Shown here in pieces: positions 146 to 31,426 of a stretch of DNA of 38,637 nucleotides (position 1 is the stretch's first letter; each line of letters starts with the position of its first letter). Where the stretch lies: positions 1 through 38,637 of IMG/VR virus record IMGVR_UViG_3300021131_000020; one strand, written 5' to 3'. The notes beneath the pieces are model-generated. The model was not told the DNA's origin and did not search any database. It saw only the letters and a program-made list of their open reading frames with translations. A program made the position numbers and the translations under genes. The DNA comes from a virus.

Positions 146-481
146 ATGAAAATAATTTATCTGCCCTGGCCGCCAAAAGAATTATCCCCAAACGCAACCC
201 TGCATTGGGCTAAGAAAGCCAAATACAAAAAGCTGTACAGACAAACGTGTTGGGCTTTAACTTTGGAGTCTAAGGTTAAGGTATCAACTGATGGTCGAAT
301 CCCTATGACGGTGACATTTTACCCACCTGATAAACGCCATAGAGATGCCGACAACATGGTAGCCAGCATTAAAGCTGGATTAGATGGTGTTGCTGATGCT
401 TTAAAGGTGAATGACAAACAATTCTGGCCGATGTTTGTCTTTTCTGATGAAGTAAAAGGGATGGTTACAATCCAGCTTTGA
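146..481 (+). CDS. rusA: RusA-family Holliday junction resolvase
   Basis: RusA-type endonucleases are Mg-dependent homodimers that cut four-way DNA junctions, and phages use them to resolve replication and recombination intermediates before packaging. The 111-residue product opens with the family's strand and loop LPWPPKELSPN, then a basic stretch (WAKKAKYKK). The diagnostic block RDADNMVASIKAGLDGVADAL follows at about residues 66-86. Asp67 and Asp69 of the RDxDN motif and Asp90 are the likely metal ligands. Length matches the family (about 110-120 residues). An in-frame ATG at 110 would add 12 residues unlike family N-termini, and neither start has a clear Shine-Dalgarno. It is the only complete plus-strand gene and overlaps the end of the giant leftward gene by 17 bases, tail to tail. 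Confidence 0.9.
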   Translation: MKIIYLPWPPKELSPNATLHWAKKAKYKKLYRQTCWALTLESKVKVSTDGRIPMTVTFYPPDKRHRDADNMVASIKAGLDGVADALKVNDKQFWPMFVFSDEVKGMVTIQL

Positions 482-3400
482 TCCTGTATTGAATAGTATC
501 TTTAAGAAGATTTTCTTTTTTAGTTTTAAAGAAATTAATTTCTTTTTGTTTTTCATCAGGCGATTTGTTTGATCTTTCAATACGATGAATGTTTTTGGTT
601 ATTTCATTCAGTTGTGCATTTGCACTTTGTGTAAATCCATAAGCTTGCAATAATCCTTTATTGGCTTCCATCCACTTTCTTGCTTGTTCAGTTTTTTTAT
701 CTTGCATTTCATTTACAAAAGTTCCATGAGCAATTTCAGCACGATTTTTTAAATCATAGAATATATCTTCTCTGCCACGAGGTACTTCAGGGGATATAAA
801 TGAACCAAATATAGGATTATTTCTTAATTCTCTAGTTGGTTTATCATTGGATAATAAATCAGATGTCCACATGGCTAATCCAGCTACTGAACCATACAAA
901 CCACGAGCAATATGATCTGCTTCCATTGGATTAATTAATCGTTTTCTTGAGCCTTCAATAGTATTACCTTCTTTGTCTTCTTTGCCAGTATATGGTATTT
1001 GAGTTGAAGCACTAATCCATCTGCCCAATTCTGAAGTATTGGCATTGTATTGCAAGAAAGGAGACAAATTCTTCATGCTGTCAGGAGTAACTTTACCGCC
1101 TGTAAAGAAATCATGGTTTAAACCAATTTCAACAAATGGTTTAAATATAGTTGGTACTGGACCAGAAGCTAAAGGACCAAGAAAAGCATCTAACGCACCT
1201 TTTTTAAGTGCTATTGATAATCTTGTTGCATCAACTTCATCTTTTGTTCCCATTGTTATAAATCGGTTGTATAACATTTCTGGTAAAGCTTTACAAATAT
1301 AACCAGCAGTTGTTGTTATTGGAATTAATAATGAATGATCAACGCCAATGTGTCTCATTAATGATCGAGGAACAAAAAAGTTACGCATCTTTGTTTGGTC
1401 ATCTAATTTTTTATATTCGTCATCATCCCCTATAGCCATTGCATATAACAAACTCATTGTCATCATTAAGCCAACGCCTGTAAATAAACGAGCACTTGCT
1501 TCGGCACGACTGATTCCTCTTAAATTACCAGCAACACTAGTAATTTTTGCTCCTGTAACTTGTTCTACGCCCATAGCGACTGGTTCTGCCAATGCTTGTG
1601 TTAATACATCAACTTGTTGTCCAAATGCATTTAAGAACGATATAGAACGAGTTAATGCTTGAGCTGTTTTTGATGCTCCACGTTGATCCCAGTTAATAAC
1701 ATTTGATGCTGCTAAAAGAGCTTTTCTTCGATCACCACGAGTTTCTTTCATTACTTTTGCATAAATTGCTCTTCTTGGTGCTAAATCTGAAGCATCACCT
1801 ATTTTGTCTAACATATTAATAAGTTTGGACATTTTATCTTCACTCAACAATCCAATTTGTTGAGTAGCATATTGTTCAGCAGTTCTTGAACTAGAATAAA
1901 TATTACCAATACCATGTGCTCTTAATATTTTTACTATTGGATCATTACTGTTAAGTGATTTTATAAAAGAACCAAAAGTAGATACATAGAATGAAATTGG
2001 ATTACGAATTCCTGTCACAATAATTGTGCTTGGAATATCCATAAATAATTGTCTTAATTGGAATACGCCAGACCAAGTAATTGTTCTACGCAATGTTTGA
2101 GCACCAAATGACATAATGCCTTCAAGTGGCAACATAAAACTTTCCATACCAATAGCTGCTTGAGCTACTAACGGATCAAGAATACGAATATTAACTTTTC
2201 TTCCATTAACTAAAATTGAAACAATGCCTCTGTTAAAGTCTTCAGCTGGATAAACTTTTAATTTTCCATTTTCATTGCGTTCACCATATACTTGAGCAAT
2301 ACGATTGGCAGCGTAGTTACGAATACAATTACGAGTAACCACCATCGTGTGGTTAATCATATTGTCCAAAACATTAGCTATCGCAAGTTCAGTTTCTCCA
2401 GGTTTAAACTTGTGTTCTTTTGAAACATTTCTAACGCCTTTTTTTCCATAAAAATATGTCGGTTTACTTGGATCTTGACTAATATCTTCAGGCTGAATGC
2501 GTTGCCACGGAACATAATCTTTAATGCTTCTATATAATTTAGCCGTTTCTTTGCTAATCATTTTAGCTTGTTCCATATTATCAACTAAGTTTTTGCTGAC
2601 AGAGTTCCAGTTGTCCATCATTTCTCTTAATTGTGGAAAATCTTTTTCAAATGCAATTCCTTCTTCTATGGCTTCTTCAGACATATTTACTTTTTGAAGG
2701 GCAATTTTGATGTGATTTAAATCTTCTTCTGCTTGCGGTATTCTATTTAATAACTGTAATTGACGATCTGGAGTTGTATCTGGATTCATTTGTTCAGTTT
2801 TTAAATCTTCTAAAACTGCCATACGGTCAGCATGTTCTTGAATAATACTTTTAGATCGTTTTGCTTCAAAATATTTATTAATTAAATTTGTTGCTGTATC
2901 AATACCAATTTCTTTTTCTAGTTCATGAGCAAGGCTAATTATGTTAGCTACCGAATGTTTATCTTCTACTGCTTCAAACATTTGATCATTAAAATTAAAA
3001 TTCATTTTGCCCAATTGAAGGACTTGTAATCCAATATGCGACGCTTTTAAAGCTTGATCCATTGCTACAGAAGCTGTAGCACGACCTTCGCCATCGATTA
3101 ATAGTCGACCATAACGCTGTGCATCAGCAGCTTTAAGTCCAGCAGTAAAATCAAACGCATTAACCCTAAACCCTAATGCCAGTCGATCAACACCATTAAC
3201 GGCTTGCTGAACAGCTGAACCAGGATTAGATATTAATCGTGCAGCATTATTTTTTCCATTTACATACCCACTAATCACGGTATCTTTTACTGTATCTCTT
3301 TTATGCGATGGAGTATCTGGAAAATCATGCTTATCCATATACTTTTTAACTTTTTGTATTTTTGGATTTTCTAAAATTTTTAAATCTGGTCCAGAATTTT

Positions 3401-6400
3401 CAAGCAAATGTCGTAAAGATAAATTATCTAATCGTGTGCCATTACCTTTCATAATGTCATCAAATGTTTTATACAAAATGTATTTGCTGTTAAATCCAAA
3501 TAAGTGTTTTAAACCTTCAATTAATTTACGAATGCCCATAACAAAACGATGCCACGGTGTTCCCATTTTCATTGTCATTAATCTTTCAGCATTAACAGCC
3601 CAATATTCTGATGGGTTTGCGTACTGATACAAATCTTCATTCGGAGGAATATGCATCCTTACTTTTTTATATGTTTCTGAAGTAGGATTAGCCATATAAT
3701 CATTAATTGCTTCAAAATACGCTTGAGTCATAGGATCAGTATTTTTACGAATCGCATCTTTTGTATCTTTAGCCCATTGGTTTATAATAGCTAATCTGAC
3801 TTGCGGTGTCATCATTTGTTCAAATGTATGCGTTAACTCATGGCGAGCTGTGCTTGGATTATCTATTCCATCAGAGCCTTTATACAAACGAATTAAACGA
3901 TTCATTGGATCAAACATCCCCAATGCAGTAGTTTCTTTTCTTACTGGTTTTCTTACTTGAAGTTCTAATCCAGTTAATAAACTTGGAGCATTTTTGTACA
4001 TCCACTCAAATACTTTATAAACATCTTCGCTAATATTGCCAGCTTGATATTCATCACCAGCTTTTTTAAAAATATTCCAAGCACTTGGTAAAGTTTTAGG
4101 TGAAATTAATGCTAAATTTTCTTCATTTTCTTTTCGTGCTTCTTCTACAAATGTAATTTCACGTTGAGTATCAATTGTGTTTTCACCATTAATAATTTGA
4201 CGTTTAAGTTTTTTTTCTTTTTTAGTTAATTCACGTTGAGAAGCAATAATTTCTTTTCTGCGTATTTCATCAAATTTATCTTTTATAGTTTTTTTACGAG
4301 GAACAATATTTTCTAATGGTTTTACTTTAGGCTCAAACATCTTTCTTGCTTGCTCTCTTTGATTAAGAGCAATTAATGTTTCACCTTTATCATTGAGTAA
4401 ATAATCAATCGCTTTCTTAGCTACATCTTCATCGTAGGTATAGGCATACATGACGCTGCCTGACTTATAAAAGTCACCCAATAACTTTGTTAATTTAGGA
4501 TCAAGGAAGTAAGTACCACCAACTTTTTTAGAGCTTGGTACATTAAATTGTATACGTCTGCCACTTTTGGTAATCTGTAAATTTTTATCAGCTGTACCAA
4601 TCGTGCCACGAGCTTCTTCCATAAACTGAATAGCATCATCAGCATTTTTAATTTTGATCGGTGCATCACGCTGGGCTTTTGCAAAGTCGTAAGTCCTTGG
4701 CATTAATACACCTTGACCAGTCGTACCATCAGCTTTGGTAAACGACATAATTTGACCTTGATTTTCTACTGCTGCGTAACCAGCCAAAATATTACCTGTC
4801 ACCATCCAGCGTTTCTCACGCCTTTGTGTTGCACCTTTATCAAACATATCTAATAAAGGAATATACTCACCTTTTTGAGTTTCAGGGTTATACCAACTAA
4901 CTGTATTTTCTTCACTAAGAGTGTATGATCCACCAATTTGAGAAAAGGTTAAAGGAAGAGACTTTGCATCACCATCAGCTAATGCTATGGTCATCTTCCA
5001 ATCAGAACCCATTGTTGGATTTTTAGTTTTCTTTTTATTCTCAATATTAGTAACAACACCATAAAATATTTGAGTATTTGCATCTTTAATTTGAATTTGT
5101 GTGCCAATTTTATATGAGTTTAAGATTGATGCAATTTTGTTGTATTGCATATTTAATCTATCTTTTTGACCTTGTACTTCTACTTCTTGTGCATCAGCTT
5201 CTTTTAACTTAACCAGCATTTCACCAGCAAATACTTGTGATCTTTGTTTTAAATCAGAAAGCATTTCTTTATAAATTTCGCTTGGCGATTTGCCATCTAA
5301 ATTTGTTTTAACTAATTCTTGAACTTCTTCTTTTGAATATGGTTTAACTTTTCGCTTGATATCCACCTGTTCCATATAAGCAGGTTGAGCAAACAATGAT
5401 TCACCTTTTCCTTCAGTAATTGGAGTTGAAGATATTGTTTCAGCATCAAGATCGGATGCCTTGGCTTCGAGCTTATTTGTTCCCATGCTATTTTCACGCT
5501 CAAGCAAATCGTTGTAGCGTTCAATCAAATCTTTGTATATCTCTTCCTGTTGTTTAAGTGGGAGAATAGGAATGTAACCAGTTAGCTTTTTAATATCTTC
5601 TTCAGTTCCATCTGCTGGATTTTCTTTTTTATCAAATGAAAACTGTTCTCCACCAAATGCTTGCCAAACCTCTGGATTGTCATTAATAAATTCTTGAGCT
5701 ACTTGACCACCGTAATCATTAATAAAGTCAACAGTACCTTCAGCCGTTACAGCAGACTTACGAGAAGCTGTGGTATTCGCATTTAAAGAAGCCATCTTCT
5801 TTAATAAAACGGCAGCTGGTCGCATTTCAGCTGGGATATCAGCCATCAACTGTGAATAAGCTGGAGGAATAACTTGACCTGTTCTTAAAACACGCCCTAA
5901 TGTTTGCATATGAACATCAATGTTGGCATCTGCTTGAGCAATAATCATATGACGTTTGCGTTTATCATCAAAATTTTCAGAAGCATGCAAAGAAATACCT
6001 GTTGATCCTGATTGATTAATAATTAAAGCAGTAATTTTTCCATTATTAAAACCTTCAATTGCATTATTTTTTTGCTCTGAATCAGGTTTTCTTGTAATTA
6101 AAGTTGGAACTCCAGTTGAATAATTGATACCAATTGTTCTACCTGTAATCTCATCTACTAAATATTTTGGGTTTGCTTTTTCAATGCCATTTTTAATATA
6201 GTCAATTGGTGACATTGGTGCAGAACCAAAACCAGCATGATTAATATATTCTTTTATTTTGTTATATTGCTCAACAATGGATGGCCCTAAATCATCATCT
6301 GTTAAACGATAATCTGTTTTAATTGGCTCTCCACCTTTTGGATTTGGTCTATTAATTTTTACAGTACGTTGTTTTTCCAAATAACCTAAAAACATATCTT

Positions 6401-9400
6401 TAAATGAAAGATTAATTGGATCACCTGGATTGATGCCCATTTCTTTTGCGTATTCTTGCAAAGAAGCACCCATTGTGTTTGAAACAGTAATGACTGGTTT
6501 TTCACCAGCAGCAATTTTTTCAAGTGCGATTCTAACTGTATCTTCTGCTTTTAATGACAATAACATTTGAGCGATCAAACTATGCATTTTTGAACCAAAT
6601 GTTGTGCTAGTTATGGTAGTTTTTTCTCCTCTGGATTTTGCTATTGCACCAGAGTTATCTAAACTTTTTTGCATTTGTTTTGTTACAATAGTAACAGCCC
6701 TAGAAAATGCCAATATATCTCGCATAGATGTAGCCATCTTTTCTGCTGTATCTTTATTCACTTTTGTTTCTACTGTGTCATACGAAACTCCAGCAAATGT
6801 TCTTTCTCTACGAATATACTGACCTTCTTGAGTAAGCATGTTTGCAACAATCTGTTGCATTGGGATGCCACCATTTCGAATTGCATCAGCAAGTTCAGAT
6901 ATATTTCCTACTGCCAATCTCATATTGGTATTGGAATATAAATCCATTACATCTGCACGTTTAGCATAAGTAGCAGATGAATAAAATGTTCCATCAGAAG
7001 CATCTACTAAGTTACGAATAAACGCTGCTTTGCCAGTTGCTTCTTCATCTTTTTTTCTAGACTTATCGCCAGATCCACCAGCTTCATGGCTTTCATCAAG
7101 AATTAAATAATTTCCTTGAACAAAATGATTTATAAATCTTTGGCGTTCAGTTTCTTTTCCACCTTGCATTTGTGCATAAGTTGTGAAAATAACTTTATAT
7201 GGCCCAAGATCATCTTTATCAATCATTCCTTTTAAAATAGAATCTTGTTTTTTTGTATTTATTTCAAGTTTAGTTTCAGTTTTTTTCCCATTTACTTTAC
7301 GAACTAATTTGTAAGGAACCATTTCATTATTATTGGTAATAATAATCTTTGGTTTATCAGTATCTAAACCAAGTTCTTTGGTCATACCAATATCATCCAA
7401 ATCACCAATCATGGCAGGATAAAGGGTTGTATTTTTTGTAACAAAAATTGGAATCTTATCGTTTAATAAAGCATACCGAATCATGGCAGCAACAACACGA
7501 CCTTTACCAATACCTGTTTGGTCTCCAATAATAAATCCTTTTCCTTCTTCAGCATTTTTAATGGCTAATGCAAGAGCATCAACTTGTTCAGCTGAAAATC
7601 TTTGAAACAACGATTCTGGTTCCATCTGCAATCTATCAGAAACATAATCATCAATATCACCAAATTGATCTACTACTTTTTGTAAAGAATTGCGTATGGA
7701 TTGTGCCATTGCTCTTGGCATGAGAGTTCCAACAGATGGTGCTTTTGAAAATGGTTCATAGGTTACTTGATGACCAGTTTCAGTTTCTTCGCCCCTACGG
7801 TCCTTTAATCCAGATTCGGTACGCTCACCTGTGACAATGCTAGGTCCACCCAATTCTCCAGGCTCGTTTGTTCTAGTGCCCTCTCTGCCGCTGGGTTGCT
7901 TTCCTTCAGCTGTACTGGGAACGGCATTTTTGTTATTGACACGTTCAGGCTTGTTAGTAACTCCAGGTTGTCTTCCACTAACACCTGCCCCAGTTGTCTC
8001 GGTTGTACGTTCGCTAGGCTCATTTTCAGACACGCCCTGTCCGCTGACTCCTGTGGGTTTGGTTCTTTCAACACCAGGCTCACCACTCGGTCTGCCAGGG
8101 CGTTCACCCAATCGTTCTGGTTCACCTGTCCTGCTGGTAGTCTCACCGATGTTAGCTCTATTGGTGCCGTCATTCCCTCTGGATACCACGCTAGGTTCAT
8201 TTAATTTCTCCTTGAGTTCTGCATAATTCTTAATAATTTGTGGAAGTTCTGCTGCTGGCAATGATCTTTGTGCTTGTCCTTTGCCATTAATAACAATGAC
8301 ATCAACAGGATAACTAGCACCCTGTTTAGAATACATATCACCAGCTACTGTAAAGTGATCTACTACGTTGTAATCTTTATAAAGATTGACATAAAAATTA
8401 CGTTTGGCAGCAGAACGATAACCTTCTTTTCTTGCTTCATCACCTTCAGCACGGACACCACCAACGATAAGAACAGCCCTACCGTCATCTTTCATTGTTT
8501 GTAATGACTTCATGACGATGGCATGGTCAATTTCTCTGGTTTTAAATCCATCAACAGTTACTTCTTCGCCAATAGCACCAAACGGTGGATTTTCAATAAC
8601 TACATCAAACTTGCCAGTTTCATTTCTAGTAAGTGCATTTTCATTAGTTACTTTACCTCCACGCAATACACCTTTTAGCATTTCAAATCGAGAAGCATTT
8701 AATTCATTCGCTCTGACATGCATAGGATCAGCAGCAATTAACAACATACCATTACCTGCTGTTGGTTCATAAACCGTTGTATCTTCATTAATGCCAGCAA
8801 GTTTGCTTGCCACATACGCCAATGGAGCTGGAGTTGAATACGCTTGTTCTTTTACGCTGGTCGATGAACGAACCGATAAATTAGGTTGACGATTGTATAA
8901 ATCTACCAATCTATCATAGGCTTCTTCTTTAGACTTTGTTTCGTGAGCAATATTTTGAGCAGCCAATACCACACCAACTTCTATTGTTTCGTCAGCTTCT
9001 TTGGCTTGTGCTGTGCCAGGATCAATCTTTTGAACTGTAATATTTGATATAAACTTGCGAGCTTCTATGATTGTTTTAAAACTGTTGCCTTCTAACAAAT
9101 GTTTAGATATTGCTTCAGCCAGTTTAAATTTAGAATCAGGATCAAATACGCTTTCTGGTTTTTCAAAGCTATGCGCCATTACAGCATCGTGGCTATCCAT
9201 CTCTTTAGCCAAGTCTTGAGCTGTTGGCTCCATGCGTAGAGCTGTGTACCATTGTTTTAAATATGGGATAACCTTATCACCTAGATCATCAATCATTGCT
9301 TTTGCATAGGCAGCAAATGTTCTTGCACCTTTTTCAACGTGATAACCAGACAAGGTAATACCATCAATTAAGAACTCAGGATCAACACCACTATTGAGCT

Positions 9401-11555
9401 GATTTAATTTTTGACGGATACGATTACGAGCTTTAGTTGCAGCATCCTCGGTAAATATTTTGTTTTCTGATACAACAGGTTTTTCTTCAGGAGTTGTTTC
9501 AATAGGTTCTTCTGTTTTTTCTGCTTCACGTTGAGCAGCTTGACGTTCTTGATTAATCTGTGCCTGTGTTTTTTGTTCAGCTTCTGGTTTAGTTTCTTCA
9601 ACTTTTGTTTCAGCTTCTGTAACAGGCTCTTCTTCAGTTGGAATTTCAGCAGTTTTTATTGCTGGTTCTTCTTCTTTTACTTCAGTTGGTTTTTCTTCAG
9701 TGGGAACTTCGGCAGCTGGTTCGTTTGCCTTTTCTTCACTGGGCTTTTCTTCAGCGGTGGGTTTTTCTTGCTCGGCATTTTTGGCCTCCTCTTTAGATTC
9801 TCCTTTTGTCCAAACAAGAGCTTCTCTTTCAGACAATTTAATGGGGTAATAATTACTTAAATTTTTAACAGGTACCCAATCAGGAAAACCATCTTTATCA
9901 TCTGCCAACATATCTTCAAAAGTTGTATTGCCATCAGCATATACAATTTTTCTAACTAAAAGACCATCAGGCCTTAAAGAATATGTAGTTGTTAATTTAT
10001 CACCATGTTCATCTACAGAATCAGTTGATTTAAGAACCTTTGAAGATTCTTCCATCGCTTTAGGCTGTGGTTTTTCTTCTTTAGGAACAACCATCAATTG
10101 ATCAGGTGTATATCCTTTTAACTGGTCAATGTCTTTAATTAATACAGGATGTTCTTCATCTTGCTCATGAAATCCATAAACGGTATCACCATCGCTGTGA
10201 GCTTTTTCGGCTTCCTGTTTTGTTGCAACAGGCTCGCCTTTTTCCATAATTTCTTCAAGAGTATGAGGCAAAGCTGGTGGAGTCGGTGGTTTAACTGAAG
10301 GCTCTTGTCTTTCTAATTCTTCTTCAGATACCATACCACCCAAAGTTGTGGGAGGAGTAACTGGCGGAGCATTTGGTCCTTCTGGAGTTTCAACTCTTGC
10401 AATGCTAGAGTTGGCAAGTTCTTGATTTTTCTGTTCTTTTTTACTTAAAACTTTACCAGCAACATATGGAACTCCGCCCATAACAATTGATTGAAGTAAA
10501 GTTGGTCCTGCAACTTCAGTAAAAGATTTTTGCCAATCAGCAGGAGATAAAAAACTTCTTTCTTCTTCTTTGTTTAAACCAGCTTTTCGCTCAACATTGG
10601 TTTGACCAATTTGCGTAGCACTTTCACCACCTAGTTCAACAGCCTGTTCACCAGCAACCGCTAAAACTGGTTTAATAACTTTTCCCTCTAATGCTTTTCT
10701 AAAAATAAACTTACCAGCACCAATACCCAATGCAGTTGAAGCGGCTTCAATTCCTGCCTCATAAGTACCATGTTCTTGTGCTAATTTTTGAATTGATCCA
10801 GATCCACCCCATTCAACGCCATATTTTTTAGCTTCGGCTTTCATTTCAGGAGATTTAGCAACTGCTAAAAATTCTGCATTAGATAATGGGATGCCACGTT
10901 GTTTTAATGATGCTTCATCTAAACCATCTCTGAAATTTCTTAAAAAATTGTTTGTATCAATACGATATGCAGCAGCTCCAGCTCCAGCCATCATTGCACC
11001 ATAGCCAACTGGAATCGAAGCCAAACCTAATGTTTCTGGTGCTACTGCTGCCCCAGCCGCAAGTCCAGAAAGTAATCCTGCACCCATTGAAACAATTGAA
11101 TTAGAAAAATTTTGTGGGAAATTTTGCACATCGCTACGAGCAATTTTTACACCCATGAAATCTACATATGTATCTTTTCCTTCTGGTGTATTTGCATGTT
11201 CCGCTGCTTTTTGTTGAGCATTTTGAACAATCCGATTCGCAAAAGTTGTTTTATCAGCAATTGCTTCAGGATTATTTCCTTGATAAGCAGCAATGCCTGT
11301 TGCGGCTAACTGCCTCGGTGTTTCTTTAACTGCTGTTCCAATATCAGAAGCTAAATCAAATAAACCAGCTTGTTGTCCTTGAAGCTCATTTGCATGTTGC
11401 GTTTTAAAAGCAGCAATTGTTGGTGATGGAGTAATTGGTGCTGGTGGTTTATTTTGTAAAAATGATTGATATTTAGCAAGCACATCAGTTTGGCTGGCAT
11501 TATCAGGAACACCACTAATGATTGTTCCATCTGGCATTTGCACATTTATAGGCAT
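465..11555 (-). CDS. Giant polyvalent protein: DNA methylase, Sno-type helicase, zincin, LPD38
   Basis: This 3,696-residue protein belongs to the large polyvalent proteins of phages and conjugative elements. Domains in order: a short N-terminal module (PDGTIISGVPDNASQTD) and a Gly/Ala-rich hydrophobic stretch at about 155-200 that may insert in membranes; a Glu/Lys/Pro-rich linker at about 585-705; and a conserved polyvalent-protein block at about 718-773. Next comes an N6-adenine methylase-like fold with YEPTAGNG (929-936) and NPPF (989-992). A Gly/Arg/Thr-rich linker (about 1122-1265) precedes an SF2 helicase of Strawberry-notch type: Walker A GDQTGIGKG (1344-1352), DESH (1487-1490), GSTGISLH (1850-1857) and GRVLRTGQ (1887-1894). 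A zincin-like HELTH sits at 2572-2576 and an LPD38-like region at about 3290-3580. Proteins like P1 DarB are packaged and injected to protect phage DNA; its place after the internal virion genes fits that role, by inference. The start lies 1 base after the preceding stop with no strong ribosome-binding site, suggesting translational coupling. Confidence 0.9.
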   Translation of the reverse strand: MPINVQMPDGTIISGVPDNASQTDVLAKYQSFLQNKPPAPITPSPTIAAFKTQHANELQGQQAGLFDLASDIGTAVKETPRQLAATGIAAYQGNNPEAIADKTTFANRIVQNAQQKAAEHANTPEGKDTYVDFMGVKIARSDVQNFPQNFSNSIVSMGAGLLSGLAAGAAVAPETLGLASIPVGYGAMMAGAGAAAYRIDTNNFLRNFRDGLDEASLKQRGIPLSNAEFLAVAKSPEMKAEAKKYGVEWGGSGSIQKLAQEHGTYEAGIEAASTALGIGAGKFIFRKALEGKVIKPVLAVAGEQAVELGGESATQIGQTNVERKAGLNKEEERSFLSPADWQKSFTEVAGPTLLQSIVMGGVPYVAGKVLSKKEQKNQELANSSIARVETPEGPNAPPVTPPTTLGGMVSEEELERQEPSVKPPTPPALPHTLEEIMEKGEPVATKQEAEKAHSDGDTVYGFHEQDEEHPVLIKDIDQLKGYTPDQLMVVPKEEKPQPKAMEESSKVLKSTDSVDEHGDKLTTTYSLRPDGLLVRKIVYADGNTTFEDMLADDKDGFPDWVPVKNLSNYYPIKLSEREALVWTKGESKEEAKNAEQEKPTAEEKPSEEKANEPAAEVPTEEKPTEVKEEEPAIKTAEIPTEEEPVTEAETKVEETKPEAEQKTQAQINQERQAAQREAEKTEEPIETTPEEKPVVSENKIFTEDAATKARNRIRQKLNQLNSGVDPEFLIDGITLSGYHVEKGARTFAAYAKAMIDDLGDKVIPYLKQWYTALRMEPTAQDLAKEMDSHDAVMAHSFEKPESVFDPDSKFKLAEAISKHLLEGNSFKTIIEARKFISNITVQKIDPGTAQAKEADETIEVGVVLAAQNIAHETKSKEEAYDRLVDLYNRQPNLSVRSSTSVKEQAYSTPAPLAYVASKLAGINEDTTVYEPTAGNGMLLIAADPMHVRANELNASRFEMLKGVLRGGKVTNENALTRNETGKFDVVIENPPFGAIGEEVTVDGFKTREIDHAIVMKSLQTMKDDGRAVLIVGGVRAEGDEARKEGYRSAAKRNFYVNLYKDYNVVDHFTVAGDMYSKQGASYPVDVIVINGKGQAQRSLPAAELPQIIKNYAELKEKLNEPSVVSRGNDGTNRANIGETTSRTGEPERLGERPGRPSGEPGVERTKPTGVSGQGVSENEPSERTTETTGAGVSGRQPGVTNKPERVNNKNAVPSTAEGKQPSGREGTRTNEPGELGGPSIVTGERTESGLKDRRGEETETGHQVTYEPFSKAPSVGTLMPRAMAQSIRNSLQKVVDQFGDIDDYVSDRLQMEPESLFQRFSAEQVDALALAIKNAEEGKGFIIGDQTGIGKGRVVAAMIRYALLNDKIPIFVTKNTTLYPAMIGDLDDIGMTKELGLDTDKPKIIITNNNEMVPYKLVRKVNGKKTETKLEINTKKQDSILKGMIDKDDLGPYKVIFTTYAQMQGGKETERQRFINHFVQGNYLILDESHEAGGSGDKSRKKDEEATGKAAFIRNLVDASDGTFYSSATYAKRADVMDLYSNTNMRLAVGNISELADAIRNGGIPMQQIVANMLTQEGQYIRRERTFAGVSYDTVETKVNKDTAEKMATSMRDILAFSRAVTIVTKQMQKSLDNSGAIAKSRGEKTTITSTTFGSKMHSLIAQMLLSLKAEDTVRIALEKIAAGEKPVITVSNTMGASLQEYAKEMGINPGDPINLSFKDMFLGYLEKQRTVKINRPNPKGGEPIKTDYRLTDDDLGPSIVEQYNKIKEYINHAGFGSAPMSPIDYIKNGIEKANPKYLVDEITGRTIGINYSTGVPTLITRKPDSEQKNNAIEGFNNGKITALIINQSGSTGISLHASENFDDKRKRHMIIAQADANIDVHMQTLGRVLRTGQVIPPAYSQLMADIPAEMRPAAVLLKKMASLNANTTASRKSAVTAEGTVDFINDYGGQVAQEFINDNPEVWQAFGGEQFSFDKKENPADGTEEDIKKLTGYIPILPLKQQEEIYKDLIERYNDLLERENSMGTNKLEAKASDLDAETISSTPITEGKGESLFAQPAYMEQVDIKRKVKPYSKEEVQELVKTNLDGKSPSEIYKEMLSDLKQRSQVFAGEMLVKLKEADAQEVEVQGQKDRLNMQYNKIASILNSYKIGTQIQIKDANTQIFYGVVTNIENKKKTKNPTMGSDWKMTIALADGDAKSLPLTFSQIGGSYTLSEENTVSWYNPETQKGEYIPLLDMFDKGATQRREKRWMVTGNILAGYAAVENQGQIMSFTKADGTTGQGVLMPRTYDFAKAQRDAPIKIKNADDAIQFMEEARGTIGTADKNLQITKSGRRIQFNVPSSKKVGGTYFLDPKLTKLLGDFYKSGSVMYAYTYDEDVAKKAIDYLLNDKGETLIALNQREQARKMFEPKVKPLENIVPRKKTIKDKFDEIRRKEIIASQRELTKKEKKLKRQIINGENTIDTQREITFVEEARKENEENLALISPKTLPSAWNIFKKAGDEYQAGNISEDVYKVFEWMYKNAPSLLTGLELQVRKPVRKETTALGMFDPMNRLIRLYKGSDGIDNPSTARHELTHTFEQMMTPQVRLAIINQWAKDTKDAIRKNTDPMTQAYFEAINDYMANPTSETYKKVRMHIPPNEDLYQYANPSEYWAVNAERLMTMKMGTPWHRFVMGIRKLIEGLKHLFGFNSKYILYKTFDDIMKGNGTRLDNLSLRHLLENSGPDLKILENPKIQKVKKYMDKHDFPDTPSHKRDTVKDTVISGYVNGKNNAARLISNPGSAVQQAVNGVDRLALGFRVNAFDFTAGLKAADAQRYGRLLIDGEGRATASVAMDQALKASHIGLQVLQLGKMNFNFNDQMFEAVEDKHSVANIISLAHELEKEIGIDTATNLINKYFEAKRSKSIIQEHADRMAVLEDLKTEQMNPDTTPDRQLQLLNRIPQAEEDLNHIKIALQKVNMSEEAIEEGIAFEKDFPQLREMMDNWNSVSKNLVDNMEQAKMISKETAKLYRSIKDYVPWQRIQPEDISQDPSKPTYFYGKKGVRNVSKEHKFKPGETELAIANVLDNMINHTMVVTRNCIRNYAANRIAQVYGERNENGKLKVYPAEDFNRGIVSILVNGRKVNIRILDPLVAQAAIGMESFMLPLEGIMSFGAQTLRRTITWSGVFQLRQLFMDIPSTIIVTGIRNPISFYVSTFGSFIKSLNSNDPIVKILRAHGIGNIYSSSRTAEQYATQQIGLLSEDKMSKLINMLDKIGDASDLAPRRAIYAKVMKETRGDRRKALLAASNVINWDQRGASKTAQALTRSISFLNAFGQQVDVLTQALAEPVAMGVEQVTGAKITSVAGNLRGISRAEASARLFTGVGLMMTMSLLYAMAIGDDDEYKKLDDQTKMRNFFVPRSLMRHIGVDHSLLIPITTTAGYICKALPEMLYNRFITMGTKDEVDATRLSIALKKGALDAFLGPLASGPVPTIFKPFVEIGLNHDFFTGGKVTPDSMKNLSPFLQYNANTSELGRWISASTQIPYTGKEDKEGNTIEGSRKRLINPMEADHIARGLYGSVAGLAMWTSDLLSNDKPTRELRNNPIFGSFISPEVPRGREDIFYDLKNRAEIAHGTFVNEMQDKKTEQARKWMEANKGLLQAYGFTQSANAQLNEITKNIHRIERSNKSPDEKQKEINFFKTKKENLLKDTIQYRIKAGL
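7760..8200 (-). other. GC-rich low-complexity linker inside the giant gene
   Basis: This in-frame segment encodes residues about 1120-1265, between the methylase-like and helicase domains. It is rich in Gly, Arg, Glu, Thr and Pro (for example TSRTGEPERLGERPGRPSG) and visibly more GC-rich than the flanking DNA. Reading frames on both strands stay open here for over 100 codons. That follows from the composition and is not evidence for extra genes. It is probably a disordered interdomain tether. Confidence 0.6.
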
Positions 11556-11556
11556 A

Positions 11557-13770
11557 TTACTTAGGCATTAAAGTTGGATTCTGCGGCAATGAACTAAATG
11601 GCACTACATTGGGTTGTACATTAGGGGGTTGACCTAAAAAATAACTACTAAATGGATTGTTTGTTGTTGGAGCTGGTGCTGGATTTGGTGCTGGATTTGG
11701 AGCTACAGGAGGTGTTAATCCAAGTATTTCACGACTTTTTTGTGGAGTTGATTTATATACCATTGCTGCTGCGGCTGCATCTAATTTTTCTGGATGGACT
11801 TCAAATGTAGTTTTCATATCACCAGTTTGTAAAATATTATAAGCTTTAAGCAAATTATCTTGATATTCTTTGGCAGCAGCATTATACATTGCTACATCTC
11901 GTGCTGCACCTGCACTTGCATATCCTGCTTCTTTAATTGCACGAGCATTTGCTAATTGTGCTTTAACATTTTGTGAACCTGTGTATGCTTGATTTAATTG
12001 TCCAAGTAATGCATCTCTGCGAGCCTGGTCTGCCGTTGCAGCTGAAATTGTTCCTTGTTGCATGAGTTTTTTCGATGCATTAATATCAGCAAGACTCTTT
12101 TGCATACCAGCTTCAGCACCAAGAGCTGATGTACCTAATCCGCTTACAAAGTTTTGGAAGGGTGAACCTGTGCGATCACCAGCACCACTCATCATGCTTG
12201 TCCCTGTACGAAATGCAAACTCAGGAAGAATCATTGCTCGTTGTTGTGCAAGATCCGCTTTTTGTTCTTCTGCTAAAGGTTTATATGCTTCTGCTACAGT
12301 ATTTTTCCCAGAAAAAGCATCTGTTAATTGTGCTTTTAATAAATCCGACATCCATTGATCATCTGCTGGAGGAACTGTTTCACCTTTAGCAAATGCTAAT
12401 ATTCCACCACCAGCCATTCTAGTCATATCGCCTGTGCCAATTGCTGCTACTCCTGAACGATTTTGTGGAGCTTCTGCCATTTGTTGTGGAGGAGGCATAC
12501 CGCCACTAGGTGCGCCTGGCAATGGTTGTGCCATTATCTTTCCAGCTTCAGGATTGTTATGAATATATCCGTGTAACTGATCTAACCCCTGTGCATACAT
12601 TTGAGCCATTGGACTTGATACAGGACTTTGCTGAACTTGCTGAAGTTGCTGATCACTCATCATTGTCATTGGCACAGCACCACCAGTAGCCATTGATGTG
12701 ATCTTACCACCACGCTTATGTCCAGCTCCAGTAGCTGCGTTATACATACCCAAACCACCAAGACCAGCTAATCCTAATCCACCCAACTGAGATGCAGTAC
12801 TTGGAGGAGCTTGATACATGGTAGTTGAAGATTGCTGTGTAGGAAGACCACGCAACATCGCATTCATTACTCCTAATTGCATGTATGGATATTGCTGTGC
12901 AGTTGCATAATTTTGCACACCTTGATTAATAATATTCTGCTGTGCTTGAGTTTGTTGACCACCAACTTGGTTCTGTAAATTGGCAATACCTTCTTGAGAA
13001 GCCAACTGTTGACCACCTAAACCAGCTAATTGATTTGCAGCTCCCATTTGCTGGCCATATGCACCCAGCTGACCTTGCATAGCACCTAACTGTGCTTGCT
13101 GTCCTTGTAATCCTAAATTAGCACCAAATTGCTGGGCTTGTTGAGCATTACCAAAAGCTTGGTTATAGCCTTGACCAATTGCTTGTTGAGCAGCCATGTT
13201 TCCTGCTTGTTGATTCAAACTATTTGCCAATGCTTCACGAGATCCACCAAACGCACCTTTTGATGTAGCAGCAGCTTGTTCGCCAGCAGAATTAATACCA
13301 GTTTGTTGTGCCAACATTTGCAACTGTGGTGCAAGCGACTGCTGAAGGTATGGATTCATGTAAGAACTAATCGAATTTGGATCAGTTGCTTGTTGGGCAT
13401 ATTGATTACCAGCTTGCCCCATTTGAGATCCTAAACCACCCATTTGATTACCGACCATGCCAGATTTCATGGCATCTTGTCCAGTAATATTCATTGCTTG
13501 TCCATACTGACTTGGATTTTGCAAGTTAGCAACAGTAGACTGCGCTTGTTTTTGCATAGGACTAAAATCAGCAAAATAATCTGATGGATTAGAACTATAT
13601 GGTTGATATGGCTTGAATGATGAATAGTTTGGACTACCATCAGGATTTGTTTGGAATATCTGTGCTTGAGTAGCATTCAGCATATTTGAGGCGTACGGAG
13701 CCAAATAATCAGGAATCTGAGTATTATTTATATTTTGCTGAACTGGAGCTGGAGATGAACTACCGCCCAT
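11557..13770 (-). CDS. Gln/Gly-rich internal virion-like structural protein
   Basis: A 737-residue protein with a long Gln/Ala/Gly-rich, probably helical N-terminal half (many GQQ, AQQ and GLGSQMGQ units). The start MGGSSSPAPVQQNINNTQIP and the block KGAFGGSREALAN are familiar from environmental podovirus-like phages, where such proteins lie beside internal virion genes. The middle carries short RGGKIT, MATGGAVP and AGGGILAFAKG motifs; the second half is Ala-rich and helical and ends in a Pro/Asn-rich tail. No enzymatic motif is visible. A strong AAAGGA lies 6 bases before the ATG. Directly upstream of the giant gene, it may be a DNA-ejection or tail-associated protein (inference). Confidence 0.6.
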   Translation of the reverse strand: MGGSSSPAPVQQNINNTQIPDYLAPYASNMLNATQAQIFQTNPDGSPNYSSFKPYQPYSSNPSDYFADFSPMQKQAQSTVANLQNPSQYGQAMNITGQDAMKSGMVGNQMGGLGSQMGQAGNQYAQQATDPNSISSYMNPYLQQSLAPQLQMLAQQTGINSAGEQAAATSKGAFGGSREALANSLNQQAGNMAAQQAIGQGYNQAFGNAQQAQQFGANLGLQGQQAQLGAMQGQLGAYGQQMGAANQLAGLGGQQLASQEGIANLQNQVGGQQTQAQQNIINQGVQNYATAQQYPYMQLGVMNAMLRGLPTQQSSTTMYQAPPSTASQLGGLGLAGLGGLGMYNAATGAGHKRGGKITSMATGGAVPMTMMSDQQLQQVQQSPVSSPMAQMYAQGLDQLHGYIHNNPEAGKIMAQPLPGAPSGGMPPPQQMAEAPQNRSGVAAIGTGDMTRMAGGGILAFAKGETVPPADDQWMSDLLKAQLTDAFSGKNTVAEAYKPLAEEQKADLAQQRAMILPEFAFRTGTSMMSGAGDRTGSPFQNFVSGLGTSALGAEAGMQKSLADINASKKLMQQGTISAATADQARRDALLGQLNQAYTGSQNVKAQLANARAIKEAGYASAGAARDVAMYNAAAKEYQDNLLKAYNILQTGDMKTTFEVHPEKLDAAAAAMVYKSTPQKSREILGLTPPVAPNPAPNPAPAPTTNNPFSSYFLGQPPNVQPNVVPFSSLPQNPTLMPK

Positions 13771-13771
13771 A

Positions 13772-14224
13772 TTAATCCTTTAACATTTTCGTATACACTT
13801 TATCTGTCTGCTTATAACCCAAATACTCTAACAATCTTGAATTATCTAAATGAATCTTGGTATGAACAATAATTCGATCCACTTTACAATGCTTTAAAAC
13901 TTGTTCGGCATATTGAAATAGTTTAATCCCAACACGACCTTTTCGAAACTCTTTTTTAACAAAATACACATCTTCTATTGCTGTAATGCAGGACTTATAA
14001 TGTAAATGTGGACTAATCATAAAAATAATATAACCAATCAACTCACCATCATTCCTACAAGAAACGCAACGCAACATTCCTAATTCTGCATACTTTCGAT
14101 AGACATCATAATCAGGATCCCAATCAAAGTCTTTTGTTACACACAACTCATCATAATGCTCTGGAAGAAGCTGTTCAAGCTCTTCAACTAATTTGATCGG
14201 ATCGCAGTCGGCATAAACTATCAT
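13772..14224 (-). CDS. GNAT-family N-acetyltransferase
   Basis: GNAT enzymes transfer an acetyl group from acetyl-CoA to an amine on a protein, small molecule or sugar. The 150-residue product has the usual length and the pyrophosphate-binding signature near residues 93-101 (EFRKGRVGIKLF, of the R/QxxGxG/A type). It also has the preceding strand EDVYFVKKEFR and a C-terminal NSRLLEYLGYKQTDKVY, the usual final alpha-beta of the fold. It starts inside the end of the 522-residue gene (ATGA overlap), so it is translated with the virion genes. The substrate is unknown; its position suggests modification of a virion or host protein during late infection. Confidence 0.82.
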   Translation of the reverse strand: MIVYADCDPIKLVEELEQLLPEHYDELCVTKDFDWDPDYDVYRKYAELGMLRCVSCRNDGELIGYIIFMISPHLHYKSCITAIEDVYFVKKEFRKGRVGIKLFQYAEQVLKHCKVDRIIVHTKIHLDNSRLLEYLGYKQTDKVYTKMLKD

Positions 14225-15828: not shown

Positions 15829-16131
15829 TTAAACCGCTGTGCCAGTAGAATTTACCCATTTTTGACCGTTCCAATAAATTGGATAGCCAAGAGTAGTATC
15901 AAAAAATTGTTGCCCTATTTGCAAATTAGCTAATGGGCGTTGACCTTTTAATCCATAACTAGGCGTTGCTGTTGCTTGGGTATAGTTGTTTAATTGATTG
16001 AAATATAAACGCAACTGGCTTAATACTTGATTATCATGTCCAGCACTATAAATCTCTGGAGCAAGAGGCAAGTTGGGAGGAGCTGGTGCTAAAGGAGTAC
16101 CATTGTATTTTTGAATATTGATTGTTGCCAT
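15829..16131 (-). CDS. Small virion-associated hypothetical protein
   Basis: A 100-residue protein beginning MATINIQKYNGTPLAPAPPN. It has a central helix (NQVLSQLRLYFNQLNNY) and ends QFFDTTLGYPIYWNGQKWVN, a short ending often found on phage tail or fibre components. I chose the ATG at 16131, which has GGAG 9 bases upstream. A TTG five codons earlier would fall within that ribosome-binding site. The ATG overlaps the stop of the homing endonuclease gene by one base, so that gene seems to have landed directly ahead of this one without disrupting it. Function unknown. Confidence 0.6.
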   Translation of the reverse strand: MATINIQKYNGTPLAPAPPNLPLAPEIYSAGHDNQVLSQLRLYFNQLNNYTQATATPSYGLKGQRPLANLQIGQQFFDTTLGYPIYWNGQKWVNSTGTAV

Positions 16132-16757
16132 TATCTTATACTCCAATGTATGCGTTCTAGTTCTTTACGAGCTGCTGCGGCTTCTTCTATAGTATTAAAC
16201 ACCTTGGAGTAATAATTTTTCTTTTTTACAGTAATTTTTGCGTAATATCTATTTTTATAAAGCACAACACCAGTAACGCCTGTTTCACTATTTGCACGAA
16301 CTCTTACATTTCTTGCTTGTTGTGTTAGACCAGCCCATCTACAATTACTTGGTTCATAATTGCCATAAACATCAATTCTGTCCAATGTTTCATCACCTTG
16401 AGGCTCACCCATATCTTTTGCAAAAGTCGCATAATCCAACCATTCAGGACACACCGATACGCCTTTACCACCATATTTTGGGTAGTCTTTATCTTTAGGG
16501 TTATTGCATCTTCTTATCATTGCTCGCCATGTATTATAAGAACTTTTTTTCCATCCACCGTGTTTTGTAATTGCTTCTTTTAAAATACAACCACACGATT
16601 CCGTATTGCCTGTTACTAAACTGCCTGAATCTGTTTGTGTTTCATTACCACAATCACATTTACACTTCCATAATACTTTTTTACTTACTGTTCTACCAGC
16701 CTGTTCTAATACTACTAATCTTCCAAACCTCTGCCCTGTACGGTCTACTAACTTCAT
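16131..16757 (-). CDS. HNH/AP2 homing endonuclease-like protein
   Basis: A 208-residue free-standing mobile endonuclease. The N-terminal Cys-rich module (GQRFGRLVVLE, then Cys32, 34, 36, 55 and 57) looks like a small zinc-binding DNA contact. The middle (YNTWRAMIRRCNNPKDKDYP through LDRIDVYGNYEPSNCRWA, about 74-142) matches the HNH-like nuclease core found with AP2 domains. The C-terminal 45 residues (TGVTGVVLYKNRYYAKITVK onward) are an AP2-type DNA-binding domain. The first catalytic His of classic HNH is not obvious; Asp in LDRID may take its place, as in related sequences. It has its own near-consensus promoter and an AAGGAG site 6 bases before ATG, unlike the virion genes around it. This suggests an inserted selfish gene. 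Confidence 0.85.
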   Translation of the reverse strand: MKLVDRTGQRFGRLVVLEQAGRTVSKKVLWKCKCDCGNETQTDSGSLVTGNTESCGCILKEAITKHGGWKKSSYNTWRAMIRRCNNPKDKDYPKYGGKGVSVCPEWLDYATFAKDMGEPQGDETLDRIDVYGNYEPSNCRWAGLTQQARNVRVRANSETGVTGVVLYKNRYYAKITVKKKNYYSKVFNTIEEAAAARKELERIHWSIR

Positions 16758-22986: not shown

Positions 22987-23871
22987 TTATTGCTGATTAT
23001 TTATTAATATCCAATTAGATGTTTGACTATCATTAATTGCATTCCAAGTTGCTGAGTTTGAATTATTTACAGCATTCCAAGTTACAGTCTGATTATCGTT
23101 AATTTTAATCCATCCTGAGACAAAATTACTATCTAATAGATTAATATTTTCTACAATAGAATCAAGGAAATTAGACTGTTGGGTACTAGAATCAGCTAAT
23201 CCTGTGTTTTCAAATACAAAAACTCCAATGCCAACTTTATTGGAATCTGCTGATGATAAATTTTCTGTTATTACTACACCGATATTTACCTGATTATTAT
23301 CTGCAAGATTTAAATTTTCTGTAATAGATTCAAGGAATTGTGATATAGCGGTTGGTGTATCAAGTACATTTACATTCTCTGTAATAGTTTGCAGGAACGT
23401 AGAAGTTTCAGAATTTGAGTCCGCTGGGTTAACATTTTCAAATACAAATAAACCAAGTCCAACTTGATTAGAGTCTGCCATTGAACTAATAGATTCTGTA
23501 ATAGTTTGAAAGAATCCCTGAGCAATGCTTGGTGTATCAGCTAAAGTCACACTTTCTGTAATTGAAAACGATAGCGCATTACCAATAGCAATAATATCTA
23601 AAAGACTTAAACTTTCAGTTATTGATTGAGAAAACTGAGCCAAAATACTTGGCGTATCAGATACACTAATATTCTCTAATATAGACTGTATAAACGCAGC
23701 CAAAACAGAATTAGAGTCTGCTAATGTTGCATTTTCTGCAATTGATAATAAAAAATTACTTTGTTCTGCATTTGCATCAGCAATAGTTACCGCCTCTGAT
23801 TTATTAAAGGTGTATAGGTTTTGTCCTAATCCAGCAAACGGTGCTTGAGCAAATGCAGTTATGCCGAACAT
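22987..23871 (-). CDS. Virion protein made of about twelve 20-residue repeats
   Basis: A 294-residue acidic protein whose body, about residues 25-260, is a tandem array of roughly 20-residue units with consensus (I/F)xEN(x)xLADSNxxxxxFxxS. Examples are SIAENATLADSN, SITESVTLADTP and TITENVNVLDTP. The last 40 residues hold a second repeat type, W-N-x-(V/I)-N (VTWNAVNNS, ATWNAINDSQ, NWILINNQ). The N-terminus (FGITAFAQAPFAGLG) resembles short virion-anchoring segments. No Cys or catalytic motif. An elongated solenoid or fibre shaft is likely. It is coupled to the 53-residue gene upstream, starting 2 bases after its stop with no strong ribosome-binding site. Confidence 0.65.
   Translation of the reverse strand: MFGITAFAQAPFAGLGQNLYTFNKSEAVTIADANAEQSNFLLSIAENATLADSNSVLAAFIQSILENISVSDTPSILAQFSQSITESLSLLDIIAIGNALSFSITESVTLADTPSIAQGFFQTITESISSMADSNQVGLGLFVFENVNPADSNSETSTFLQTITENVNVLDTPTAISQFLESITENLNLADNNQVNIGVVITENLSSADSNKVGIGVFVFENTGLADSSTQQSNFLDSIVENINLLDSNFVSGWIKINDNQTVTWNAVNNSNSATWNAINDSQTSNWILINNQQ
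23085..23800 (-). repeat. Degenerate tandem repeat, about 60 bp units
   Basis: The coding repeats of the 294-residue gene show at DNA level as recurring minus-strand words for ENxxLADSN, such as plus-strand gaatctgc and ttctgtaat spaced near 60 bases. About twelve units are seen. They are diverged, so the array is old or under selection for variation and is not a recent expansion. Confidence 0.6.
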
Positions 23872-24393: not shown

Positions 24394-26502
24394 TTAACCA
24401 ACTTTCCAGTTTGTACCATCTGAATAAACAGGAGTAAATACTGCACCACCACCTGTAACTGTAGCTTGAAATGTAGGTGCTAAAGCATCAGTTACAAATG
24501 TTCTCGAACCACGACCTACTGTTGATGCACTTGGCAAACTTGCTACTGTTGAATAATTAAGTGGGTAACGTAAAACGGTATTTGATGAGTTACCAATAGT
24601 TATTTCGTTTGATACTGTAGCTGCCGATGGTGCAGCTTGATAGCCCAATAAAATATTATTAGAGCCTGTCGTAATAGAAGAACCAGCAGAATAACCAATA
24701 ACTGTATTATTTGCTCCTGTGGTATAACCGCTTAAAGCATTAGGACCAATTGCCACATTTAACCCACCAGTAGTCGAGCCTGATACTCCCAATCCAGCAT
24801 TTCCACCAATAAATATGTTATCTGCACCTGTGGTATTGTAGTATCCAGACTGATAACCAATTATTACTGAACCATAAGTATCAGTAGCTTGATAGAAAAA
24901 CCCTGACCTGTAACCTAATGCTGTTGCATTACTTGTTGTAGATAAAGAATATAAAGAATATGTACCGATAGCCGTATTTTGACCACCTGAAGATGCTTGA
25001 CCTAGTGCGTAATAACCAATAGCAACATTATTGCTTCCATTTGGACTACCTGCGAATTCACCAATTATTACATTATATCCACCAGTTGAAAGAGAAGAAC
25101 CTGATTGATAACCAATAACTGTGTTATGTGAACCAGTTGTAATTGCCTTACCCGCTTGATAACCAACTACAATATTTCTAGTTCCAGTCGTATATGCAGT
25201 TAAAGCTTGAGCACCAATTGCTACGTTTTGACCACCAGTCGTTGAACCAGAAACTCCATATCCAGCACTACCACCAATAAAGACATTGTCAACCCCAGTA
25301 GTATTGTAGTAGCCTGCCTGATAACCCGCAATAAAACTACCATATACATCATTACCTGTATATGAATAACCTGATGTATCACCAATAGCAGTTGAATAAT
25401 TATTTGCTGCTTGTGAATATAAAGAGCGATAACCTACTGCTGTTGCATGACTAGTATACTGCGCTGATGCTAATGCTTGATTACCTATACCAACTGAATA
25501 ATTTGGTGAAACAATTGAATTACTAAACTGTGGGCCTGATTGATAACCAACAAACACATTGCTTGTGCCACCGTTCATATATTGAGCGGCTTGATAACCT
25601 ATTATTACGCAGTTTACTGTGGTTTTATATAACCCAAGGGCATCTGCACCAATCGCTACATTTAAACCACCTGTTGTTGAAGCACTAACCCCATAACCAG
25701 CTTTGCCGCCAATAAATACGTTATCAGCACCAGTTGTATTAAAATAACCAGATTGATAACCAAGATACACACCACCATAAGTATCTGTTGCAGCGTAAGA
25801 ATAGCCTGATTGATAACCAACCCCAGTTGCTTTTCCTTGTGTTGTGCCAGACGCTAAAGTTTGATAACCGACTGCTGTTAAGTTTGCTCCAGTCGTATTT
25901 GCATTTAACGCTTGATAACCCAAAGCGGTATTTGTTGCAATACTTCCTGAACCTAAACCAATAGTTAATGTATGAATTTTTGCATCATTAGCCAATGTCA
26001 AACTTGTACCATCAAAGGTCATGTTGGCAGAACCAGCAAACGATCCTGAGCTATTGTATTGAACTTGAGTATTAGAGCCACCTGGTGAACCACCGCCACC
26101 ACCTGATGCTTGCCAACTAGGTGCTAAACCTGTACCGTTTGAAGTTAGTACATAACCAGACGTTCCAGGATTATTGCTTGAAACTACTGTATTTTCTGCT
26201 GGCTGTGTAATAAAAACATTTAGACTGTTGGATGTACTAAAACTAATTAAAGCAGTTGTTCCAAGCGAGTTAGATATAACCGTTGTACGAACAAGCGTAT
26301 TTGGACTAGTTGTAAATGTTCCAATACCTACTTCCCAAACTCCAGCTATAGAATCGTAGATACAATAGTATGTTGTATTACCAGAAGTTATTGTACTTGA
26401 GAAAGCTACATAACCAGATACGGCACCACCAAGCGTAACAGAACCTGTACCTGTGGATACTGTACCTGTTTCAAATACACGGTCAGCTAATTGTAAAGCC
26501 AT
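24394..26502 (-). CDS. Tail fibre with YadA-head-like beta-helix repeats
   Basis: A 702-residue receptor-binding fibre candidate. The N-terminus (MALQLADRVFETGTVSTGTG through about 90) is a common phage fibre attachment domain. From about 180 to 640 it is built of 14-16-residue units with consensus N-x-(V/A)-I-G-x-x-A-L/G, such as NVAIGADAL, NTVIGYQSG and NVFIGGSAG. This is the pattern of the left-handed parallel beta-roll heads of YadA-type trimeric adhesins. Within it, a block of about 60 residues recurs three times. The last 60 residues (SRTFVTDALAPTF through SDGTNWKV) form a different tip domain. AAGGAG stands before ATG. It lies between the small virion genes and the other adhesins. Confidence 0.83.
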   Translation of the reverse strand: MALQLADRVFETGTVSTGTGSVTLGGAVSGYVAFSSTITSGNTTYYCIYDSIAGVWEVGIGTFTTSPNTLVRTTVISNSLGTTALISFSTSNSLNVFITQPAENTVVSSNNPGTSGYVLTSNGTGLAPSWQASGGGGGSPGGSNTQVQYNSSGSFAGSANMTFDGTSLTLANDAKIHTLTIGLGSGSIATNTALGYQALNANTTGANLTAVGYQTLASGTTQGKATGVGYQSGYSYAATDTYGGVYLGYQSGYFNTTGADNVFIGGKAGYGVSASTTGGLNVAIGADALGLYKTTVNCVIIGYQAAQYMNGGTSNVFVGYQSGPQFSNSIVSPNYSVGIGNQALASAQYTSHATAVGYRSLYSQAANNYSTAIGDTSGYSYTGNDVYGSFIAGYQAGYYNTTGVDNVFIGGSAGYGVSGSTTGGQNVAIGAQALTAYTTGTRNIVVGYQAGKAITTGSHNTVIGYQSGSSLSTGGYNVIIGEFAGSPNGSNNVAIGYYALGQASSGGQNTAIGTYSLYSLSTTSNATALGYRSGFFYQATDTYGSVIIGYQSGYYNTTGADNIFIGGNAGLGVSGSTTGGLNVAIGPNALSGYTTGANNTVIGYSAGSSITTGSNNILLGYQAAPSAATVSNEITIGNSSNTVLRYPLNYSTVASLPSASTVGRGSRTFVTDALAPTFQATVTGGGAVFTPVYSDGTNWKVG
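24720..25806 (-). repeat. Three-copy, about 60-codon block in the fibre gene
   Basis: Copies at about 24720-24905, 25195-25372 and 25628-25806 encode near-identical stretches. The copies share NTTG(A/V)DN(V/I)FIGG, AG(Y/L)GVS(A/G)STTGG and NVAIG, each preceded by a TDTYG or NDVYG segment. The intervening units differ in number and sequence. The pattern suggests internal duplication followed by divergence. Confidence 0.7.
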
Positions 26503-31416: not shown

Positions 31417-31426
31417 AAACTTCTCC

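Follow-up and report, generated by a model that had tools for sequence, protein, structure and literature searches.

The window, meaning the whole 38,637-base stretch of DNA analysed here, is a virus record whose minus strand carries mostly virion genes, with same-strand matches to a major head protein, virion structural proteins, a tail spike and an endolysin. Neither a terminase nor a portal gene was recognised in these 38,637 bases, so the record is probably a fragment. The first-pass annotation had reported an open frame at 465-11555 without naming its strand; the frame is indeed open over 3,696 codons, starts with ATG and lies on the minus strand. Its product, hereafter the giant, combines several unlike enzymatic domains in a single chain. 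The locus comprises:

11557..13770, minus: partner gene of 737 aa, immediately upstream; its stop is separated from the giant's start codon by 1 base
465..11555, minus: giant polyvalent protein gene, 3,696 aa plus stop
11451..11555, minus: N-terminal tag, residues 1-35 (MPINVQMPDGTIISGVPDNASQTDVLAKYQ...), of a type common to L141 and L171
11040..11099, minus: hydrophobic glycine/alanine-rich stretch, residues 153-172 (Kyte-Doolittle 1.78)
9156..9440, minus: domain before the methylase, at the place expected for LPD36, residues 706-800; PHROG matches; two interchangeable sequence types in relatives
8109..8978, minus: N6-adenine DNA methylase, gamma class, residues 860-1149
8748-8762, minus: methylase motif I, TAGNG
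8580-8591, minus: methylase motif IV, NPPF
5526..7781, minus: Strawberry-notch-type SWI2/SNF2 ATPase, residues 1259-2010
7500-7526, minus: ATPase Walker A
7086-7097, minus: ATPase DESH
5874-5897, minus: ATPase motif VI
4329..5528, minus: ATPase C-terminal domain, residues 2010-2409
3402..4106, minus: zincin-like metallopeptidase domain, residues about 2484-2718
3828-3842, minus: zincin HELTH
3606-3608, minus: likely third zincin ligand, Glu 2650, within NPSEYWAVNA
468..2828, minus: carrier module, residues 2910-3696 (~790), nearly all helical and LPD38-terminated
1428..1487, minus: hydrophobic stretch in the carrier, residues 3357-3376
810..1424, minus: Pfam LPD38, residues 3378-3582 (2.2e-22, 80.5 bits against a cut-off of 27)

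The motifs named in the first-pass annotation are all intact: TAGNG at residue 932, NPPF at 989, GDQTGIGKG at 1344, DESH at 1487, GRVLRTGQ at 1887 and HELTH at 2572. The proposal of a large polyvalent protein is borne out by an intact methylase-ATPase dyad joined to a zincin-like domain and LPD38 among virion genes. No loss of catalytic residues, the finding named in advance as fatal to that proposal, was seen, since those of the methylase, ATPase and zincin are conserved in relatives; this retention places the methylase, helicase and zincin motifs beyond chance. The roughly 1,100 residues after the helicase, previously a puzzle, resolve into the helicase's own C-terminal domain (400 aa), the zincin and the first part of the LPD38 module. 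Phage-type polyvalent proteins likewise combine an N6-adenine methylase with a SWI2/SNF2-clade ATPase, a zincin-like peptidase and LPD38 in a virion-gene context, and the available part of their description reveals no basic difference from the giant, although Strawberry-notch-type ATPases are described there as rare and LPD38 is given no role (Iyer et al., 2017; PMC5512222). The giant is a well-preserved, complete member of this class.

Relatives were collected from IMG/VR by a scan with the methylase-ATPase part, which gave 33 loci, mostly 53-69% identical, and by further scans that took the C-terminal part and alignments as queries; the long protein was searched piecewise rather than whole. 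In a profile survey, about 30 complete ORFs had every part; 12 complete ORFs combined zincin and LPD38 but lacked the methylase-ATPase, and 12 ORFs carried LPD38 with no match to the zincin profile. These relatives share phylogeny, and counts across them are not independent.

The methylase carries the marks of the gamma class, which are conserved in relatives: STP (TP cap), EP..GNG and NPPF. Pfam methylase families match it weakly (MTS, 0.006; Eco57I, 0.006), and searching with a methylase-ATPase profile gives the EcoR124 M subunit at 2.6e-4. PHROGs give a DarB-like match at residues 574-803 and a DNA methyltransferase match at 903-1012, and PADLOC returned over the methylase only generic methylase matches and Mad2 (MADS). 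In the preceding domain (residues 706-800), the GXGU motif is not evident and no LPD36 model is matched. Directly C-terminal of the methylase lies the SWI2/SNF2-clade ATPase, for which AAA_34 (1.9e-19) and Helicase_C_4 (7.1e-19), both of Strawberry notch type, score above Pfam cut-offs. Its GDQTGxGKG, DE.H, SSAT, GSTG.SLHA and QxLGRVxRTGQ motifs are conserved, and the aligned full-length set keeps the methylase, Walker A, Walker B and motif VI residues. The type of sequence at residues 2010-2409 also accompanies a methylase and ATPase in compact bacterial chromosomal proteins of 1,550-1,830 aa (L216-L277), mostly from Bacteroidota and sometimes split as two adjacent genes. The ~400 residues after the helicase therefore belong to the ATPase, and their reading as a separate new domain was rejected; these stand-alone proteins delimit the cargo unit. 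Some relatives have extra inserts separating the C-terminal domain of the ATPase from the zincin (L020:13646-17641, L006:13631-16453, L028:13311-16130, L021:12936-15731); by eye, L020 has a YkuD-like stretch (SFGCIN) there, and L006, L021 and L028 have a ParB-like one (NEGNHRIMAAKELG).

The last 937 residues (2760-3696) are modelled by AlphaFold as nearly all-helical (pLDDT 81, pTM 0.78); BFVD contains similar models of other phage 'large polyvalent proteins', the best match being at 1.7e-35. Comparison of this end with the dyad separates the two. In several relatives (L014, L017, L019, L141, L150 and others) the dyad is 57-61% identical, yet the carriers are unrelated by BLASTP; conversely, others (L118, L069, L070, L076, L120) have a carrier 40-47% identical and lack the dyad. 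For example, the window protein matches L118 only at residues 2399-3696 and 351-525, whereas it matches L003 at 806-3696. Dyads without a matching carrier and carriers without a dyad imply that the two parts recombine independently. Ahead of the zincin or LPD38 in the dyad-less and zincin-profile-negative groups, Pfam finds GHKL ATPase (HATPase, 7 of 23), GNAT (6), L,D-transpeptidase (YkuD, 4), ART-PolyVal (2), ddrB-ParB (2) and other domains, matches that include weak ones and were partly confirmed individually. As judged from these alignments, the methylase-ATPase dyad is an exchangeable cargo, and the carrier end is the part that stays. A carrier bearing one of several exchangeable cargos is favoured over the earlier idea of one machine with linked activities.

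The best explanation, to which we assign a probability of about 0.6, is that the giant is a polyvalent virion protein of the phage type, composed of a carrier and its cargo. Intact catalytic motifs, carrier/cargo boundaries, cargo exchange, a recurrent zincin place, partner-carrier linkage and a late-gene context are all observed. We infer that the short N-terminal tag would direct the giant into the procapsid, along with the upstream partner protein, and that the C-terminal LPD38 module would keep it in the particle and carry it into the cell as the DNA enters. The zincin adjoining this module would then cut the chain and free the cargo, and the methylase-ATPase cargo would track the incoming duplex and methylate adenines, shielding phage DNA from type I-like restriction.

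The HELTH domain is predicted to be a zincin-like peptidase. Across 53 zincin regions, the H, E and H of HExxH are invariant (53/53), and the downstream Glu is present in 52, with Asp in the remaining one. Pfam and PDB profile searches with the zincin region gave no significant family or structure (Peptidase_M90 reached only 0.044), and a fold search with the AlphaFold model of residues 2010-2760 found no useful match in the PDB. Because this model (pTM 0.35, low confidence before the HExxH) lacks the zincin sheet, the assignment rests on sequence. Among the 55 complete LPD38 ORFs, 51 contain HExxH, against 1.2 expected from composition, mostly about 250-420 residues upstream of the LPD38 module. 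With L088 and L089, which have HExxxH about 370 residues before the module, the total rises to 53 of 55. The same holds for five isolate phages (JC1, BS-TP4, PTXU04, X14 and Pag-Yong1), with HExxH or HExxxH 197-288 residues before the module. L124 and L125 have neither motif; these short LPD38 proteins (L124:1902-5369, 1,156 aa; L125:8771-12331, 1,187 aa) are possibly bare carriers.

The zincins ahead of LPD38 fall into several unlike sequence types. A peptidase position that persists even as the sequence type occupying it changes points to a constant requirement, the simplest being processing where cargo meets carrier. Instead of processing the giant, the zincin could act as an effector, cleaving host proteins once inside the cell, an option listed in the available part of Iyer et al. 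(2017; PMC5512222) and consistent with the conserved active-site residues and with the second HExxH found in several proteins (L095, L104, L110). We consider this unlikely, because several unlike zincin types occupy much the same position ahead of LPD38 irrespective of cargo, which a processing or release role explains better than changing host targets. Self-cleavage by the zincin of the giant, as the carrier-plus-cargo reading envisages, would agree with the zincin processing of polyvalent proteins proposed in general in that part of the text, which also records that N4 vRNAP has a zincin yet is packaged unprocessed (PMC5512222).

The partner gene bears on the role of the carrier. Its homologues precede giants whose cargo is quite different (e.g., L118, 8e-278). 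Presence of a homologue tracks carrier similarity (23/11 vs 2/16; Fisher 1e-4, nominal because the relatives are not phylogenetically independent) and shows no association with cargo (14/14 vs 11/13, p 0.79). The partner gene thus seems to follow the carrier, not the cargo. T7 gp16 is a large internal core protein whose gene lies near the end of the virion gene block, and the giant, also large and encoded by the last gene of its virion block, might likewise be chiefly an ejection-conduit protein, with the helical C-terminal module and the partner forming a channel and the enzymes as minor passengers. The adjoining partner, the hydrophobic stretches at 153-172 and 3357-3376, the 937-residue helical model and the position of the X14 LPD38 giant just before a tailspike gene fit such a role. 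However, a PDB fold search with the carrier model gave nothing at E <= 0.001 (best E 0.54) and matched no solved ejection protein, and no lytic transglycosylase domain was found in the giant. A mainly conduit function is about as improbable as a host-directed zincin, and it overlaps with the carrier role proposed here.

An antirestriction role for the methylase-ATPase pair was already proposed by Iyer et al. (2017), in the part of that text available (PMC5512222), so that antirestriction with entry, a class-level proposal since 2017, is a reasonable function for the giant. The dyad might instead act in a different step, for instance by moving DNA or by labelling it for phage replication: the unit stands alone in bacterial chromosomes, mostly of Bacteroidota, and protection in cis was demonstrated only for P1 DarB, a distant protein. 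Against this, the combination of methylase and SWI2/SNF2 ATPase is the DarB pairing and resembles restriction-modification enzymes (PMC5512222, in the portion available), and the catalytic residues of both are kept. A role outside restriction protection is, in our judgement, slightly less probable than either a host-directed zincin or a conduit. The strand separation suggested by the first-pass annotation is doubtful, because SWI2/SNF2-clade ATPases are described, in that portion of the source, as translocating on duplex DNA without separating its strands (PMC5512222); the helicase of the giant would move along the duplex instead of opening it.

Packaging of the giant is suggested by analogy with Burkholderia phage JC1, whose gp69 was detected with 51 unique peptides in CsCl-purified virions, second by score, together with gp68, encoded directly upstream (PMC9144972). 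JC1 gp69 (4,515 aa) carries transglycosylase-like, methylase, helicase, LPD3 and LPD38 regions, the last matched by CDD at 1.6e-36 (PMC9144972); our profiles match its carrier end partially, and HEAFH lies at residue 3465, 215 residues before the carrier module. Like the giant, JC1 gp69 and Bcep22 gp75 (DarB-like, Lessievirus) are of giant size, with methylase and helicase annotations, an LPD38 end and a virion-associated upstream neighbour. JC1 gp69 differs in its N-terminal lytic transglycosylase-like domain and LPD3, and its methylase and ATPase are distantly related. That the giant stays in the cell as a late protein and never enters the virion would suit a phage known here from its genes, but this is highly improbable given the position of the gene in the virion block and the rank of JC1 gp69, which shares the C-terminal module, among the virion proteins detected best (PMC9144972). 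The giant is very likely packed in the virion and would be injected to shield viral DNA, presumably by methylating it on entry.

Other known systems share parts of this architecture. Bacteroides phage BS-TP4 gp3 (5,391 aa) has the methylase-ATPase-C-terminal-domain unit at 30% identity, an HExxxH and an LPD38 end; it differs in being longer, in having a different N-terminal half and an unlike zincin type, and in preceding the portal gene. P1 DarB is a virion protein in which a methylase is joined to an ATPase and an N-terminal sequence targets the capsid (PMC9024508), whereas it has 2,255 aa, NVPF instead of NPPF, and neither HExxH nor LPD38. The label 'DarB-like' given by the first-pass annotation therefore fits the dyad and goes no further: the DarB methylase match is weak (10 bits), the DarB helicase is unmatched by the family profile, and zincin and LPD38 are missing. 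Simple orthology to P1 DarB was rejected, as the helicase is not alignable and the domain set differs.

The N-terminal ends vary independently of the rest of the protein: 33 pairs of giants have the tag in common but not the body, and in 27 pairs the reverse holds. Of 59 distinct giants, 26 show a self-repeat in their first 70 residues that scores above the 99th percentile for internal windows, where 0.6 would be expected; the window giant's own tag is of the unrepeated type. Because the N-terminal 30 residues of P1 DarB suffice for capsid targeting (PMC9024508), our best guess is that the tags may be capsid-loading signals. A tag common to other virion genes of the same contig was unsupported in the 10 kb flanks. 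In relatives, motifs of 8-24 residues are tandemly repeated within the first ~60 residues (DDLQKLAAQFGG.., NPFDQFD.., FDPNAYLASKE..; e.g., L028:7092, L070:4790, L125:8771, L119:3590).

The division into carrier and cargo, a zincin that is nearly obligatory ahead of LPD38, the partner-carrier linkage and the swapped N-terminal tags go beyond the available part of the 2017 text, which does not state zincin-LPD38 pairing or cargo exchange (PMC5512222). More tentatively, and at somewhat less than even odds, LPD38 could be the end of a general delivery chassis, in which a ~900-residue helical carrier without a solved fold, a nearly obligatory protease slot immediately ahead of it, a dedicated partner and short swappable N-terminal loading tags serve varied effectors that the protease frees in the host. 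These effectors might include the methylase-ATPase, L,D-transpeptidase, GHKL ATPase, acetyltransferase and ADP-ribosyltransferase. LPD38, named in 2017 without a function in the text available (PMC5512222), becomes a testable carrier, and zincin processing becomes a position-specific prediction of a cut between cargo and LPD38 module. If the chassis is real, phages would possess natural vehicles for protein delivery in which tag, cargo slot, release protease and carrier are each defined, and new effectors could be found ahead of zincin-LPD38 ends in other phages.

The surrounding genes show further features. A GNAT acetyltransferase gene (13772-14224) lies just upstream of the partner gene, and JC1 has an N-acetyltransferase gene (gp63) in the corresponding region before its giant. 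HNH and GIY-YIG endonuclease genes, probably homing, lie within the virion gene block (16131-16757 and 36063-36650). A 702-aa protein (24394-26502) with many repeats of the form YQSGYYNTTGADNVFIGGKAGYG matches tail spike and virion structural families, and a 294-aa protein (22987-23871) consists of short repeats (ENxxLADSNSV..). Two overlapping small genes (31219-31524 and 31427-32248) encode His/Lys/Gly-rich products with KHGGK repeats.
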